Shown: piece after piece, positions 59,186 through 64,000 of the stretch
Numbering within the stretch: the stretch's first letter is position 1
How the letters are laid out: every line of letters begins with the position of its first letter
NCBI RefSeq assembly: GCF_900111455.1
Contig: NZ_FOIE01000010.1
Coordinates: 1-64,000 of the forward strand
From: Geodermatophilus poikilotrophus
GTDB lineage: Bacteria > Actinomycetota > Actinomycetes > Mycobacteriales > Geodermatophilaceae
Length of the DNA: 64,000 bases
Direction: 5' to 3'
The notes under the pieces: generated by a model
Database searches by the model: none
Told to the model about the DNA's origin: nothing
Seen by the model: only the letters and a program-made list of their open reading frames with translations
Translations under genes and position numbers: made by a program

Positions 59186-62002
59186 TCAGCGCCGCGTGCG
59201 GCGGGCGACGCGGGCGGCGAAGACGCCGGCGGCGTGGCCGTTGTCGATGTTGCTGACCACCACGCCGGGAGCCGCCGAGGTGAGCACCGTCAGCAGCGCG
59301 CCGAACCCGCCGAAGGAGCCCGGCTGCCCGGTCGAGGTGGGGACGGCGACGATCGGCACGTCGGTCAGCACACCGACCAGGCCGGGCAGCGAGGCGTCCA
59401 GCCCGGCGATGACGACCAGGCAGTCGACGTCCTGCGGCAGCGCGTCCCCGGGCAGCCCGGCGCGGAACCGGCTGCCCCCGACGTCGTCCACCCGGACCAC
59501 CGCGGTCCCCGTGACACGGGCGGCGAAGGCTGCCTCGGCGGCCACCGCGAGGTCGCCGCCGACCCCGCACAGCACGCCGATCCGGCCGGCGGGTTCGGGC
59601 AGCGGCCCGACCGCCGCGGCCATCGACGCCGCGTCGACCGTCGTGCAGGCGTCGTGCTCGGCGGCCAGCGCGACCAGCGTCTCGGCGGGCGCGCGGACGA
59701 CGACGGCGGGCCGGTCCGGGAACTGCCGGCGCGCCTCGCGGACCAGGGCGAGCACCTGCTCGGTGCTGCGGCCGGTGCCCCAGATGACGTCGGGCTCGCC
59801 AGGCGTCCCGGGGGCCGGCGCGGCCGGCGGGACCGCGGGCTCGACGGGTGGTGCGGCGGCCGGTGGAACCGGCGCCAGGGCCGGCTCGCCGGGGCTGCCG
59901 AGGCCCAGCGGCGGGTCGGCGGGCTCGACGAGGAGCGCGGCGAAGCCGCTGCTCACCGCGGTCGGGTCGGCCGGCGGGGGGACAGGCACGGCAGGGACCG
60001 CAGGAGCCGCCGCGGTCTCCCTCGGGGAGCGGGCGGCGGCCGTGTCGTCCCGGGGGGACCGGTCCGTCGCGGCCGGCCCGGGCAGCGTGTCCGGCGGGCT
60101 CCCGGCGGCCCGCGTCTGGGTCACCGCCGACAGCCGGACGACCCGGTCGCGGCCGGTGCGCTTGGCGTCGTAGAGGACGCCGTCGGCGGCGGCGAACAGC
60201 GTGCGCCGGTCGTCGCCGCGGGTGGCCGAGGCGATGCCGACGCTGATCGTCACCGGCACGGGGAGGCCCAGCGCGGCCCAGTCGGTCTCCGCCACCGCGC
60301 GGCGGCAGCGCTCCAGCGCGCGCTCGGCCTGCTCGGCCGTGGTGTCGGGCAGCAGGACGACGAACTCGTCGCCGGCCCACCGGCAGACCTCGTCGGTGTC
60401 GCGGCACCCGGCCACCAGGATCTCGGCGACCCGGCGCAGGACGTCGTCGCCGCCGGCGTGGCCGACGGCGTCGTTGACCTCCTTGAACCGGTCGACGTCC
60501 ACGACGGCCAGGGCGGGTGTCGTCCCGCTGCCCAGCAGCCCGTCGAGGGTCGCCTCGGCGTAGCGCCGGTTGGGCAGGTGGGTGAGCGGGTCCTCGTAGG
60601 CCTGCCGGCGCAGCTGCCCGGCGGCCCGCTCGGTCTCCAGCAGGCTCTTGCGCCGGCCGAACAGCTCCACCCAGCGGGTGCGCCGCTCGTCGACCCGGTC
60701 CAGCTCGTCGGCCAGGTAGGCCTGCAGGTACGGCAGTGCCCGGCCGGCGTCGTCCAGTTCGGCGTGCAGCGTGCACAGCTCGCGCAGCGCGGCCCGGCGC
60801 AGCCGCGGCAGGCCGTGCTCGGTGGCCGTGGCGAGCGCCTGGGCCAGCTGCTCGTCGGCGTCGCGGCCGTTCCCCTGCCGGCGCAGTGCGCGGCCCAGGG
60901 CGAGCAGCGCCGCGGCGTGCACCGCCCGGTCGCCGGCGGTGGTGGCGTGGACGGCGGCCCGCAACGGTCCCGCGGCGGCGGCGTGCTCGCCCAGGCCCAC
61001 CAGCGCCCAGCCGTGCACCACCTGCGCGGCCACGACCGCCTCGGCCGACTCCGGCGGCAGCAGGGTCAGCGCCTGCTCGGCCAGCGTGCGGGCCTCGGCG
61101 AAGTGCGGCTCGGCCGCGTCCGGGACGCCGTCGTCGAGCAGTGCCTCCCCGAACTCGGCGCACAGCTCCCCCAGGGAGCTGGCGGCGCGGGCGACCAGGA
61201 GGGCGGGGTCGCCGTCCTCCGGCCGCAGCGCCCCGGGGACCGCGGCGGCGGCCACCGCGGTCTCGTGCGCCCGCCGCTGGTAGTCCAGGGCCAGCGGCAT
61301 CAGCTCCAGGTCGGCGAGCACGCCCGCGAGGTCGGTCAGGGTCTGCACCAGCAGCGCGGAGGGCGGCATCGCGGGGCCGAGCAGGCTGGCCGCCTCCACG
61401 GCCTCGTCCATGGCGGCGTCGGTGCGGCGGGACAGCAGCTCGATCCGGGCGTGCCGGGCCAGACCGGCGGCGCGCTGCAGCTCGTCCGCGGTGGCGTCGA
61501 AGGCGGCCTTGGCCGAGCGCACCAGCGCGATGGCCAGCGCCGCGGAGGAGGCGCGCGGGTCGCCGTCCTCCGATGCGCCGGCGCCGTCGATCAGCTCGGC
61601 CACGCCCGCGTGCAGGTCCAGCGCGGGCTCGACGGCAGCGCCGGACGGAGGTTCCACCGGGTCGCCGACGAGGGTGAAGCCGGCCTGCCGCAACCGGCGG
61701 ACCAGCAGCTCGGCGCGCAGCGTGTCGGCCCAGGCCCGGCCCAGGTCGGTGGGACGGTCGGCGCCGCCGTCGCGCGGCGCGGGCGCCACGTAGGGGGAGT
61801 CGGTGCCGACGTCGGCCAGCAGCTCCTCGGCGTCGTCGAGCCGCCAGTTCGACAGGGCGGCGGTCACCCGGTGGTGCAGGGCTCCGGGAGGCACGAGCGC
61901 ACTGTGCACGCCGCTGTCAACGGAGTCGAGCACCGGCAGGGGGGCACGCCGGGAGCCCGGTGCACTCCCGTCCCAGCCGTCCCTCCCGGTCCGTGCCGTC
62001 AC
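59186..62002 (-). CDS. TPR-like / GGDEF diguanylate cyclase / LarB-domain fusion
   Basis: 938 residues. Residues about 40-460 are an all-helical, TPR-like region (repeated A-x-L..A-L-x3-G patterns). The GGDEF domain (about 468-620) has YEDPLTHLPNRRYAEATL, VDVDRFKEVNDAVGHAGGDDVL, RDTDEVCRWAGDEFVVLLP (inhibitory RxxD site and AGDEF active site) and ISVGIAS. A Pro/Ala linker follows, then a LarB/AIR-carboxylase-like domain from about 737 (DVIWGTGRSTEQVLALVREA.., GVGGDLAVAAEAAFAARVTG, VIAGLDASLPGLVGVLTDVPIVAVPTS, APGVVVSNIDNGHAAG). LarB proteins usually have Cys in SCAPG; here it is SAAPG (Ala910). GTG 62002 overlaps the upstream GGDEF stop as GTGA. Confidence 0.85.
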   Translation of the reverse strand: MTARTGRDGWDGSAPGSRRAPLPVLDSVDSGVHSALVPPGALHHRVTAALSNWRLDDAEELLADVGTDSPYVAPAPRDGGADRPTDLGRAWADTLRAELLVRRLRQAGFTLVGDPVEPPSGAAVEPALDLHAGVAELIDGAGASEDGDPRASSAALAIALVRSAKAAFDATADELQRAAGLARHARIELLSRRTDAAMDEAVEAASLLGPAMPPSALLVQTLTDLAGVLADLELMPLALDYQRRAHETAVAAAAVPGALRPEDGDPALLVARAASSLGELCAEFGEALLDDGVPDAAEPHFAEARTLAEQALTLLPPESAEAVVAAQVVHGWALVGLGEHAAAAGPLRAAVHATTAGDRAVHAAALLALGRALRRQGNGRDADEQLAQALATATEHGLPRLRRAALRELCTLHAELDDAGRALPYLQAYLADELDRVDERRTRWVELFGRRKSLLETERAAGQLRRQAYEDPLTHLPNRRYAEATLDGLLGSGTTPALAVVDVDRFKEVNDAVGHAGGDDVLRRVAEILVAGCRDTDEVCRWAGDEFVVLLPDTTAEQAERALERCRRAVAETDWAALGLPVPVTISVGIASATRGDDRRTLFAAADGVLYDAKRTGRDRVVRLSAVTQTRAAGSPPDTLPGPAATDRSPRDDTAAARSPRETAAAPAVPAVPVPPPADPTAVSSGFAALLVEPADPPLGLGSPGEPALAPVPPAAAPPVEPAVPPAAPAPGTPGEPDVIWGTGRSTEQVLALVREARRQFPDRPAVVVRAPAETLVALAAEHDACTTVDAASMAAAVGPLPEPAGRIGVLCGVGGDLAVAAEAAFAARVTGTAVVRVDDVGGSRFRAGLPGDALPQDVDCLVVIAGLDASLPGLVGVLTDVPIVAVPTSTGQPGSFGGFGALLTVLTSAAPGVVVSNIDNGHAAGVFAARVARRTRR

Positions 62003-63651
62003 GGTGCGTCGTCCCCGGCGCGGCCGCCGTGCGCGCGCACCCGGTTGCGTCCGCCGCGCTTGGCGGTGAACAGGTGCAGGTCGGCGGTGTCGAACAGCGA
62101 CCGCCAGCCCAGCGGCTCGTCGGCGGCCGCCGGGGCGGTGGCCACGCCGATGCTCACCGTCACCGGCTCGGGCAGTTGCAGGTCGCCCCAGTCGGCGCCG
62201 GCGACGGCGGCGCGCAGCCGGTCGACGGCGGTCAGCGCCTGGGCCTCGGTCGCCGTCGGGAGGACGACGAGGAACTCGTCGCCGGCCCACCGGTACACCT
62301 CGTCACCGGTGCGGCTGTGCTCGCGCAGCAGCTCGGCCACCCGGCGCAGCACCTCGTCGCCGTGCGAGTGGGACGTGTCGTCGTTGACCGCCTTGAACCG
62401 GTCGATGTCGACGACGGCCAGCGACACCGGCTCGACGCCCACGCGCATGCCGCCCAGCCGGCGCTCGGCGCTGCGCCGGTTGCCCAGCCCGGTGAGCGGG
62501 TCCTCCAGCGCGACCCGGCGCAGGTGTGCGGTCTGCCGCTCGGCCTCGCGCAGCCGGCTGCGCCGCACGAACATCTCCGCCCACAGCTCCCGGCCACGGG
62601 CGTGCGCGCGGCCGGTGTCGGCGCGGTAGGCCTCCAGCCAGTGCAGCGCCTCGGCGGGGCGGCCCATCGCCGCGGTGCCCTGGCCCAGCTCCAGCAGGCA
62701 CTGCCGGTAGCGCCGGCGGTCCCCGGCGGCGGCGAAGGCCCCGGCGGCGTCGACCAGCAGGTCGGTGGCCTCCGCGTCGTGCCCGCCGCCGGACCGGGTG
62801 CGGGCCAGCCGGGTCAGCAGCCGGGCGAGCACGAGGTCGGCGTAGCCGCGCAGCCAGGTGCCGCCGTCCCGGTGCACCCGCTTGTGCGCGCGGCGCATCG
62901 GGCCGATCGCGTCCTCGACCTCGCCGCAGCCGGCTACCGCCCACGCCTGGACGACGTCGAGCAGGTCCTGGTCGGCGGGCCCGGCCTCCCAGTCCAGGGC
63001 GCGGGCGGCCTCCGCGAGGTCCACCGCCGTCCCGGCCAGCTCGCGGGCGCGCTCGATCTGGCCGCGGCGGTGCAGCGTCTGCGCCAGCTCGGCGTGCTGC
63101 TGGGCGCACAGCTGCAGCAGCCGCCAGCGGTCGGCGACGCCCGGCAGCTCGTCCGCCACCCGGGAGCCCTGCAGCGCCTGCGCGACGGCGAGCTCCTCCA
63201 GGTCGAGGGCGGCCAGGGCGAGCGACAGCCACAGGTGGGCCTGGTGCAGGGCGCGGGAGGGGCCGTCGGCCGCCGCCGTCTCGGCCAGCAGGCCGGCGTC
63301 GATGGCCAGCACCATCGCCGCGTCGACGTGGTCGGCGGCCACCTCGACGACGGCCAGGTACGCCAGCGTCAGCGCGGTCTGCGCGCACGGCAGGCACCGG
63401 CCCAGGGCGTCGCGGGCCGCGGAGACACCGGCCGCCACGGCCTCGCGGTCGCCGTCGGCCAGGGCACGGCGGGCGGCCAGGGCGTGCCGCCAGGCGATCC
63501 AGCGCGGGTCGGTCGCGGCGTCCAGTGCCTCGGCCGCGCGGTCGTGTTCGGCGGCGAAGGCGGCGGGGTCGTCCCGGTCGCTGGCGGACAGCAGACCCCA
63601 GAGCGCATCGTCGAGGTCACCCTCGGTGAGGCGTTCAGAGCCGGGGGTCAC
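61999..63651 (-). CDS. TPR-like / GGDEF diguanylate cyclase
   Basis: 550 residues. A TPR-like helical N-terminus (residues about 20-370) then a GGDEF domain: LEDPLTGLGNRRSAERRL, VVDIDRFKAVNDDTSHSHGDEVL, RTGDEVYRWAGDEFLVVLP (I-site RTGD and AGDEF), VTVSIGVATA. Makes c-di-GMP if active. No membrane segment, so cytosolic. GGAGG precedes GTG 63651. First gene of a two-gene unit with the GGDEF-LarB fusion, divergent from pheA across 112 bases. Confidence 0.9.
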   Translation of the reverse strand: MTPGSERLTEGDLDDALWGLLSASDRDDPAAFAAEHDRAAEALDAATDPRWIAWRHALAARRALADGDREAVAAGVSAARDALGRCLPCAQTALTLAYLAVVEVAADHVDAAMVLAIDAGLLAETAAADGPSRALHQAHLWLSLALAALDLEELAVAQALQGSRVADELPGVADRWRLLQLCAQQHAELAQTLHRRGQIERARELAGTAVDLAEAARALDWEAGPADQDLLDVVQAWAVAGCGEVEDAIGPMRRAHKRVHRDGGTWLRGYADLVLARLLTRLARTRSGGGHDAEATDLLVDAAGAFAAAGDRRRYRQCLLELGQGTAAMGRPAEALHWLEAYRADTGRAHARGRELWAEMFVRRSRLREAERQTAHLRRVALEDPLTGLGNRRSAERRLGGMRVGVEPVSLAVVDIDRFKAVNDDTSHSHGDEVLRRVAELLREHSRTGDEVYRWAGDEFLVVLPTATEAQALTAVDRLRAAVAGADWGDLQLPEPVTVSIGVATAPAAADEPLGWRSLFDTADLHLFTAKRGGRNRVRAHGGRAGDDAP

Positions 63652-63763
63652 GCATCCTCCAACGACGGTGTCCGGCCGCTGCACGGCCACGGGTCGTGCG
63701 ACCAGCGGAGCAGCTCTCCCCGGTGTGGCACCCGCCCTCGCCCGGGCGCACTACCCTCGTCGG

Positions 63764-64000
63764 GTGCCTGGGACGCCTCCGACGCGGTACGCCTATCTGG
63801 GACCCGAGGGTACCTTCGCCGAAGCGGCCCTGATCAGCGCCGTTGCGCCGGGCGAGGGTTCCCGGATCCCCGCTCCGGGCGTGCCGGCGGCGCTGGCCGT
63901 CGTCCGTTCGGGGGACGCCGACGCCGCGCTGGTGCCACTGGAGAACTCCGTCGAGGGCTCCGTGCCGGCCACCATGGACGGCCTGGCCGAGGGCGACCCG
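63764..64000 (+). CDS. pheA: prephenate dehydratase (5' part)
   Basis: The first 79 residues are present: YAYLGPEGTFAEAAL, then VPAALAVVRSGDADAALVPLENSVEGSVPATMDGL, the conserved PDT N-lobe. Converts prephenate to phenylpyruvate in phenylalanine synthesis. GTG 63764 is 6 bases after TACCCT (63752-63757), a leaderless start. It runs off the right edge. Confidence 0.93.
   Translation, partial: MPGTPPTRYAYLGPEGTFAEAALISAVAPGEGSRIPAPGVPAALAVVRSGDADAALVPLENSVEGSVPATMDGLAEGDP

Follow-up and report, generated by a model that had tools for sequence, protein, structure and literature searches.

LarB is a carboxylase/hydrolase that acts on nicotinic acid adenine dinucleotide (NaAD) in the synthesis of the nickel-pincer cofactor, according to two papers (PMC11796402, PMC9283937). 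PurE, the class I carboxylase/mutase of 5-aminoimidazole ribonucleotide (AIR), ranks next after LarB in the structural comparisons of the window's domain reported below, and a PurE-fold domain also occurs within a fusion protein, PAICS (6yb8). The two parts of PAICS catalyze steps of a single pathway. The title of one published paper names a cysteinyl intermediate of LarB. The remaining relatives are the multidomain diguanylate cyclases, whose GGDEF domains work as dimers. We analyzed a 64,000-nucleotide stretch of Geodermatophilus poikilotrophus DNA (positions 1–64,000 of contig NZ_FOIE01000010.1, assembly GCF_900111455.1; hereafter the window) in which a single gene joins a TPR-like region, a GGDEF domain and a C-terminal LarB-like domain that we call LarB′.

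We propose that LarB′ is a pseudoenzyme descended from LarB, with a role in assembling or regulating the diguanylate cyclase of which it is part, a reading to which we assign a probability of roughly 0.56. LarB′ resembles LarB in its whole-domain fold, in the VPTS motif and in D128, E134 and D231 (residue numbers such as C221 and K57 follow L. plantarum LarB), and its locus is shared with stand-alone larB-larC pairs that lie beside pheA; it differs in having neither the catalytic Cys nor the motif D..R..R.G, in the replacement of many former pocket residues, in its fusion to TPR-GGDEF, in not being tied to LarE and in a changed pattern of constraint. The C-terminal half of LarB′ has the PurE fold, but LarB′ also carries the N-terminal subdomain that distinguishes LarB and is nearer to LarB in sequence. 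The AGDEF signature and RxxD inhibitory site of the fused protein are those of multidomain GGDEF diguanylate cyclases, from which it is set apart by the C-terminal domain derived from LarB, probably as a pseudoenzyme. PAICS likewise holds a PurE-fold domain within a fusion, whereas here the LarB part is without the catalytic residue and its partner is a signaling enzyme. We rate the fused protein as a multidomain diguanylate cyclase bearing a module of enzyme origin, of which we have seen no earlier description. Searches of open-licence papers on LarB, AIR carboxylase, GGDEF pseudoenzymes and Geodermatophilaceae cyclases brought up none, and a sequence-only reading of this stretch likewise knew of no GGDEF-LarB system.

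The gene runs from a GTG start at 62002 to a stop at 59186 and comprises the following features.

59186–62002, minus strand: TPR-GGDEF-LarB′ gene, an open frame of 938 codons (GGDEF and LarB′ joined in one frame in 51/55 loci read)
60662–61882, minus strand: TPR-like helical N-terminal region, residues 41–447, with a long helix before GGDEF (TPR_MalT match and helices in the full-length model)
60143–60601, minus strand: GGDEF domain, residues 468–620 (Pfam E 9.7e-38)
60392–60403, minus strand: RxxD inhibitory site RDTD, residues 534–537 (found alongside the signature in 51/55 loci)
60362–60376, minus strand: AGDEF signature, residues 543–547 (49 of the 51 loci read AGDEF, the other two AGDEY)
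59798–60130, minus strand: disordered Pro/Ala-rich linker, residues 625–735, about 110 residues (predicted local distance difference test, pLDDT, <50 for 618–736)
59189–59800, minus strand: LarB′ domain, residues 735–938 (NCBIfam LarB E 2.6e-38; Z 24.3 to LarB 7mj0)
59594–59791, minus strand: N-terminal subdomain of LarB′, residues 738–803, the less divergent half (N/catalytic divergence ratio 0.74 versus 3.96 in stand-alone LarB)
59201–59593, minus strand: PurE-like, formerly catalytic half of LarB′, residues 804–934, relaxed (divergence comparison)
59273–59275, minus strand: codon of Ala910, at the position of catalytic Cys221 (alignment)

The sequence-only reading had described one uninterrupted 938-codon frame with a TPR-like region, a GGDEF domain (AGDEF, RxxD) and a C-terminal LarB/AIRC-like domain, and both the frame and the Pfam and NCBIfam matches bear this out. 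A MalT-like TPR model matches residues 301–428 at E 5e-8, below its curated cut-off. With its AGDEF and RxxD motifs, the GGDEF domain looks like that of an active cyclase subject to product inhibition; the search pattern demanded both motifs together, and the four remaining loci are cut or out of frame. The NCBIfam LarB match on residues 735–934 scores 131.8 bits, short of the equivalog cut-off of 175, whereas the stand-alone LarB of the same genome scores 251.7; Pfam AIRC matches residues 857–933 (E 2.7e-8). The linker contains a short conserved stretch (GFAPLL...DPPLGLG; F687, L690, L691 and P698 invariant in 30/30) that could be a binding motif.

Structure prediction and superposition on LarB show that LarB′ has the LarB fold, with the N-terminal subdomain and the PurE-like half both present. 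Using the AlphaFold model of the domain (37 sequences; pLDDT 82.9, predicted template modeling score, pTM, 0.82), Foldseek returned LarB 7mj1_F as its best match (E 1.6e-14), and structural alignment gave LarB 7mj0, 7mj1 and 8soq at Z 23–24 (best 24.3) with 32–34% identity, followed by PurE at Z about 15. Residue 910 is Ala within SAAPG and aligns to Cys221, which we take to be the number of the catalytic Cys in L. plantarum LarB; the alignment agrees with the initial observation that this Cys is replaced in the window protein while VPTS and NIDNG are retained. We extended the comparison to 55 fused domains and 28 stand-alone LarB, of which 27 come from loci read here and one is the L. plantarum protein. 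Cys occupies position 221 in 28/28 stand-alone and 0/55 fused domains, where the residues are Ala (39), Ser (7), Thr (4), Gly (4) and one other. A catalytic Cys at a shifted position can be ruled out as a general rule: no replacement Cys is specific to all fused members, the sole Cys invariant in 55/55 (residue 861) being present also in 14/28 stand-alone LarB.

The loss extends well beyond the Cys. Among 54 positions invariant in the stand-alone proteins, 24 persist in 50 or more of the 55 fused domains, 13 in five or fewer and 17 in an intermediate number; Y204 and F234 are kept in 0/55, R159 in 1/55 and H158 in 3/55. K57, invariant in stand-alone LarB, is Arg in 55/55 fused domains, S127 (present in 27/28 stand-alone LarB) gives way to Gly or Ala in 52/55, T126 is replaced in all or nearly all, and the N-terminal motif D..R..R.G is found in 27/27 stand-alone loci versus 0/55 fused. 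Retained in nearly all fused domains are D128, E134, D/E180, VPTS and D231. Across all 55 fused domains, 40 positions are invariant, including R745, found in 0/28 stand-alone LarB, and R755, found in 3/28. We infer that LarB′ no longer carboxylates NaAD.

The pattern of constraint has changed as well. We compared 19 genomes in which a fused LarB′ occurs together with a stand-alone LarB, the latter always of the same type, so that each stand-alone copy serves as a control from the same genome. Mean pairwise divergence in LarB′ is 0.218 for the N-terminal half and 0.297 for the catalytic half; in stand-alone LarB it is 0.296 and 0.075, respectively. Counted by genome pairs, the values are 0.218 and 0.296 for the fused and 0.313 and 0.073 for the stand-alone domains. 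The N/catalytic ratio is thus 0.74 (95% 0.54–0.97) for LarB′ and 3.96 (2.59–6.37) for stand-alone LarB by column bootstrap, and invariant columns in the catalytic half number 97/131 in stand-alone LarB versus 39/131 in LarB′. Relaxation of the catalytic half is a firm result of this comparison. Ratios of nonsynonymous to synonymous substitution (dN/dS) among seven close sequences are 0.18 for the N-terminal half and 0.22 for the catalytic half of LarB′, 0.18 for GGDEF, 0.27 for TPR and 0.54 for the linker; LarB′ is retained, though apparently for something other than LarB chemistry.

The architecture is not peculiar to the window. A LarB′ query matches 26/26 genomes of the genus Geodermatophilus and 111/112 of Geodermatophilaceae, a soil-dwelling actinobacterial family, and the fused type is present in 102/112 family genomes, 101 by match (G097 counted on a 71-residue piece) and G107 by reading of its locus; the fusion itself was checked in 55 fetched loci. 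GGDEF and LarB′ share one frame in 51 of these 55, two being changed in frame within the linker and two cut; no GGDEF was read in L078 and L090, which are cut by contig ends. Among named records, largely of the same species as the family set, GGDEF is in frame in 30/30 fused-type loci, from genera that include Geodermatophilus, Blastococcus, Trujillonella and Klenkia. This spread and the in-frame fusion in 51/55 loci rule out a local frame error or a one-off fusion, an objection that the sequence-only reading had itself raised. In-frame stops ("1 TGA") flagged in some genomes of genus g8 and in G111 proved to be the stop codons at the end of LarB′, with none inside the domain. The one genome without a LarB′ match, G080, has its locus cut near a contig end after the start of the linker. 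Nine genomes (G066–G074, genera g5–g7) match only as stand-alone LarB (7/9 read), and the TPR-GGDEF part of the fused gene has no match in these nine, whose assemblies are fragmented (190–550 contigs, 74–98% complete).

Outside the family, the fusion was not encountered in the loci read. LarB-like matches occur in 104/298 genomes of the order, and all 16 outside loci read, including the six whose open frames are longest among these matches, are stand-alone, with Cys present and no TPR-GGDEF match; the TPR-GGDEF part was found in 28/200 genomes of the order, all Geodermatophilaceae. Across 396 genomes of the phylum, the LarB matches listed over the cut-off lie in open frames of 202–681 residues, a scan in which a Cys-less domain like LarB′ scores below the cut-off, so that distant fusions could escape it.

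LarB′ is not tied to the nickel-pincer pathway, as shown by the co-occurrence of lar genes in 108 family genomes (four of the 112 not included). Genomes with a second LarB have LarC in 60/60 cases and LarE over the cut-off in 59/60, the sixtieth (G100) having a LarE fragment; with G107, first counted as stand-alone only and then reassigned to this group, the counts become 61/61 and 60/61. When the fused copy is the only LarB (n=37), LarE passes the cut-off in 0/37, LarC is found in 9/37 and LarA in 2/37, both in incomplete assemblies, and none of the three is found in 28/37. Fisher's test of LarE against LarB status gave p 4.5e-26 before the reassignment of G107, a value that kinship among the genomes makes descriptive. 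Three of the nine fused-only genomes with LarC are incomplete assemblies (70–80%), and five (L190/G036, L191/G038, G027, G040 and G043) have LarC matches of E 7e-93 to 5e-108, clearly weaker than the full-length matches in other genomes (1e-118 to 1e-134); because of these weaker matches, the presence of LarC without LarE or a second LarB in the five looks like decay of the pathway. Within the window no LarA, LarC or LarE match exceeds the cut-offs, in agreement with the sequence-only reading, and a full cluster lies on another contig (C12) of the same genome (larE 285707–286480, larA 287205–287813, larB 288050–288646, larC 288697–289830). The tree resolves two types of stand-alone LarB in the family (L002; L116–L118, L173–L188): the window's genome exemplifies one, which sits in a larE-larA-larB-larC cluster, and G056 the other, which adjoins larE while larC remains at the fused locus.

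Several observations at the locus bear on how the fusion arose. Two neighboring genes lie upstream of the fused gene.

61999–63690 (start uncertain), minus strand: TPR-GGDEF paralogue without LarB′ (GGDEF E 1.1e-28)
63785–64000, plus strand: 5′ part of pheA (prephenate dehydratase), divergent, the synteny anchor (Pfam PDT E 1.7e-14 over the portion inside the window)

The GTG start of the fused gene overlaps the stop of the paralogue by 4 nt. The order pheA, paralogue, fused gene recurs in 53/55 fused loci, with the paralogue adjoining the fused gene in each and the other two loci cut by contig ends; the paralogue is a probable operon partner. Used as a query, it gives 31 matches in G107 and 30 in G080, mostly to the GGDEF part only, from which these bacteria appear to have many GGDEF proteins. 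Among the 27 stand-alone LarB loci read, nine have a head-to-head pheA that starts no more than 1 kb from the LarB domain, all nine with larC no more than 0.1 kb downstream, and in two further loci pheA is 3.5–4.4 kb away. Fused domains are 45–57% identical to the pheA-linked LarBs and 37–48% to stand-alone LarBs of the other two types read among Geodermatophilaceae. They form one clade with support of 100/100, which supports a single origin for the fused domain. Midpoint rooting sets this clade outside all other LarB, perhaps through its long branch; because the tree does not place the clade, the origin of LarB′ rests on synteny and identity. The synteny suggests that LarB′ derives from a larB that once lay beside pheA, and we infer that pheA and larB were separated by TPR-GGDEF genes, one of which acquired larB as its tail.

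How might such a domain serve a cyclase? LarB′ has probably been retained as a protein module for assembling the cyclase and would also modulate it, perhaps through contacts of its N-terminal subdomain, while the TPR region would receive the input signal. PurE-fold octamers are recorded in structure titles (3oow and the fusion protein human PAICS, 6yb8). A number of points weigh against this proposal. The full-length model is weak (pTM 0.47, a single chain with a disordered linker), so that neither an oligomer nor a contact with GGDEF is seen in it. D128, E134, D/E180, VPTS and D231 would be unneeded by a pure scaffold, though they may be structural. Invariant columns in the N-terminal half number 23/66 in stand-alone LarB versus 24/66 in LarB′, and from these counts and the divergence ratios the catalytic half is clearly relaxed but the N-terminal half just modestly tighter. 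R745 is absent from the diverged fused LarB′ of G107 (L201), which has deletions in the catalytic half, a well-kept N-terminal half and a LarC match about 0.1 kb downstream. LarB′ stands in a different frame from GGDEF in L059 and L076, where the linker contains a frame change, either a real split or a sequencing error. Finally, larC lies downstream of the fused gene in 26/55 loci, within 0.8 kb in 24, a possible tie to the old pathway at those loci.

The main rival to assembly or regulation is that LarB′ is a ligand sensor, which would bind NaAD, NAD, AMP (adenosine monophosphate) or a related nucleotide without turnover and thereby switch GGDEF, so that cyclic di-guanosine monophosphate (c-di-GMP) would track NAD or energy status. 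LarB structures have been solved with NAD and with AMP, as their titles state, the change of K57 to Arg in 55/55 preserves a positive charge, and a ligand for LarB′ is possible since D128, E134, D/E180, VPTS and D231, some of them pocket-type residues, remain. Set against this, all or nearly all fused domains are without S127, T126, H158, R159, Y204, F234, C221 and the N-terminal motif, divergence in the fused catalytic half is roughly fourfold that in stand-alone LarB from the same genomes, and the G107 member lacks the Arg and parts of the catalytic half. The nucleotide-sensor role put forward by the sequence-only reading is the less likely one: the replaced LarB residues and the relaxed catalytic half weaken the case for NaAD sensing by the old pocket and favor an assembly or regulatory role, and we regard sensing as possible but unlikely.

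That LarB′ is a passive passenger, the functionless leftover of a chance fusion, would fit the relaxed catalytic half and the two loci with a frame change ahead of the domain, but its presence in 102/112 genomes, a dN/dS of about 0.2 in both halves and 40 positions invariant in 55 make this improbable. Purifying selection, the retained acidic residues and a Cys at residue 812 in 40/55 fused domains could instead point to an enzyme of another kind, such as a nucleotide hydrolase independent of Cys; the catalytic half is variable, however, and former pocket positions are filled by mixed residue types, and we consider this still less probable. That the fused domain still helps to make the nickel-pincer cofactor, perhaps alongside LarC, is the least credible reading, for although larC follows the fused gene in 26 loci (24 of them within 0.8 kb) and LarC persists in nine fused-only genomes, most fused-only genomes have no LarA, LarC or LarE, none has LarE over the cut-off, and the nine include five with LarC weakened as in decay and three incomplete assemblies.

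LarB′ is a well-supported example of a cofactor-making enzyme converted into part of a signaling protein. A related locus can still be read in other genomes, and the stand-alone copies that accompany LarB′ within single genomes provide the control. It also carries a caution for annotation, as a LarB/AIRC label on the fused protein does not imply nickel-pincer synthesis. One survey records the c-di-GMP-binding anti-sigma factor RsiG, in its twin-motif form, in 16/16 Geodermatophilaceae species (PMC8325347). A bolder idea, which we hold to be doubtful, is that a diguanylate cyclase gene took up larB where it stood and that the captured domain became a nucleotide-responsive receiver, in which case c-di-GMP in Geodermatophilaceae would track the status of an NAD-family nucleotide or of energy. 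The fused protein offers a testable handle on c-di-GMP control in this family.

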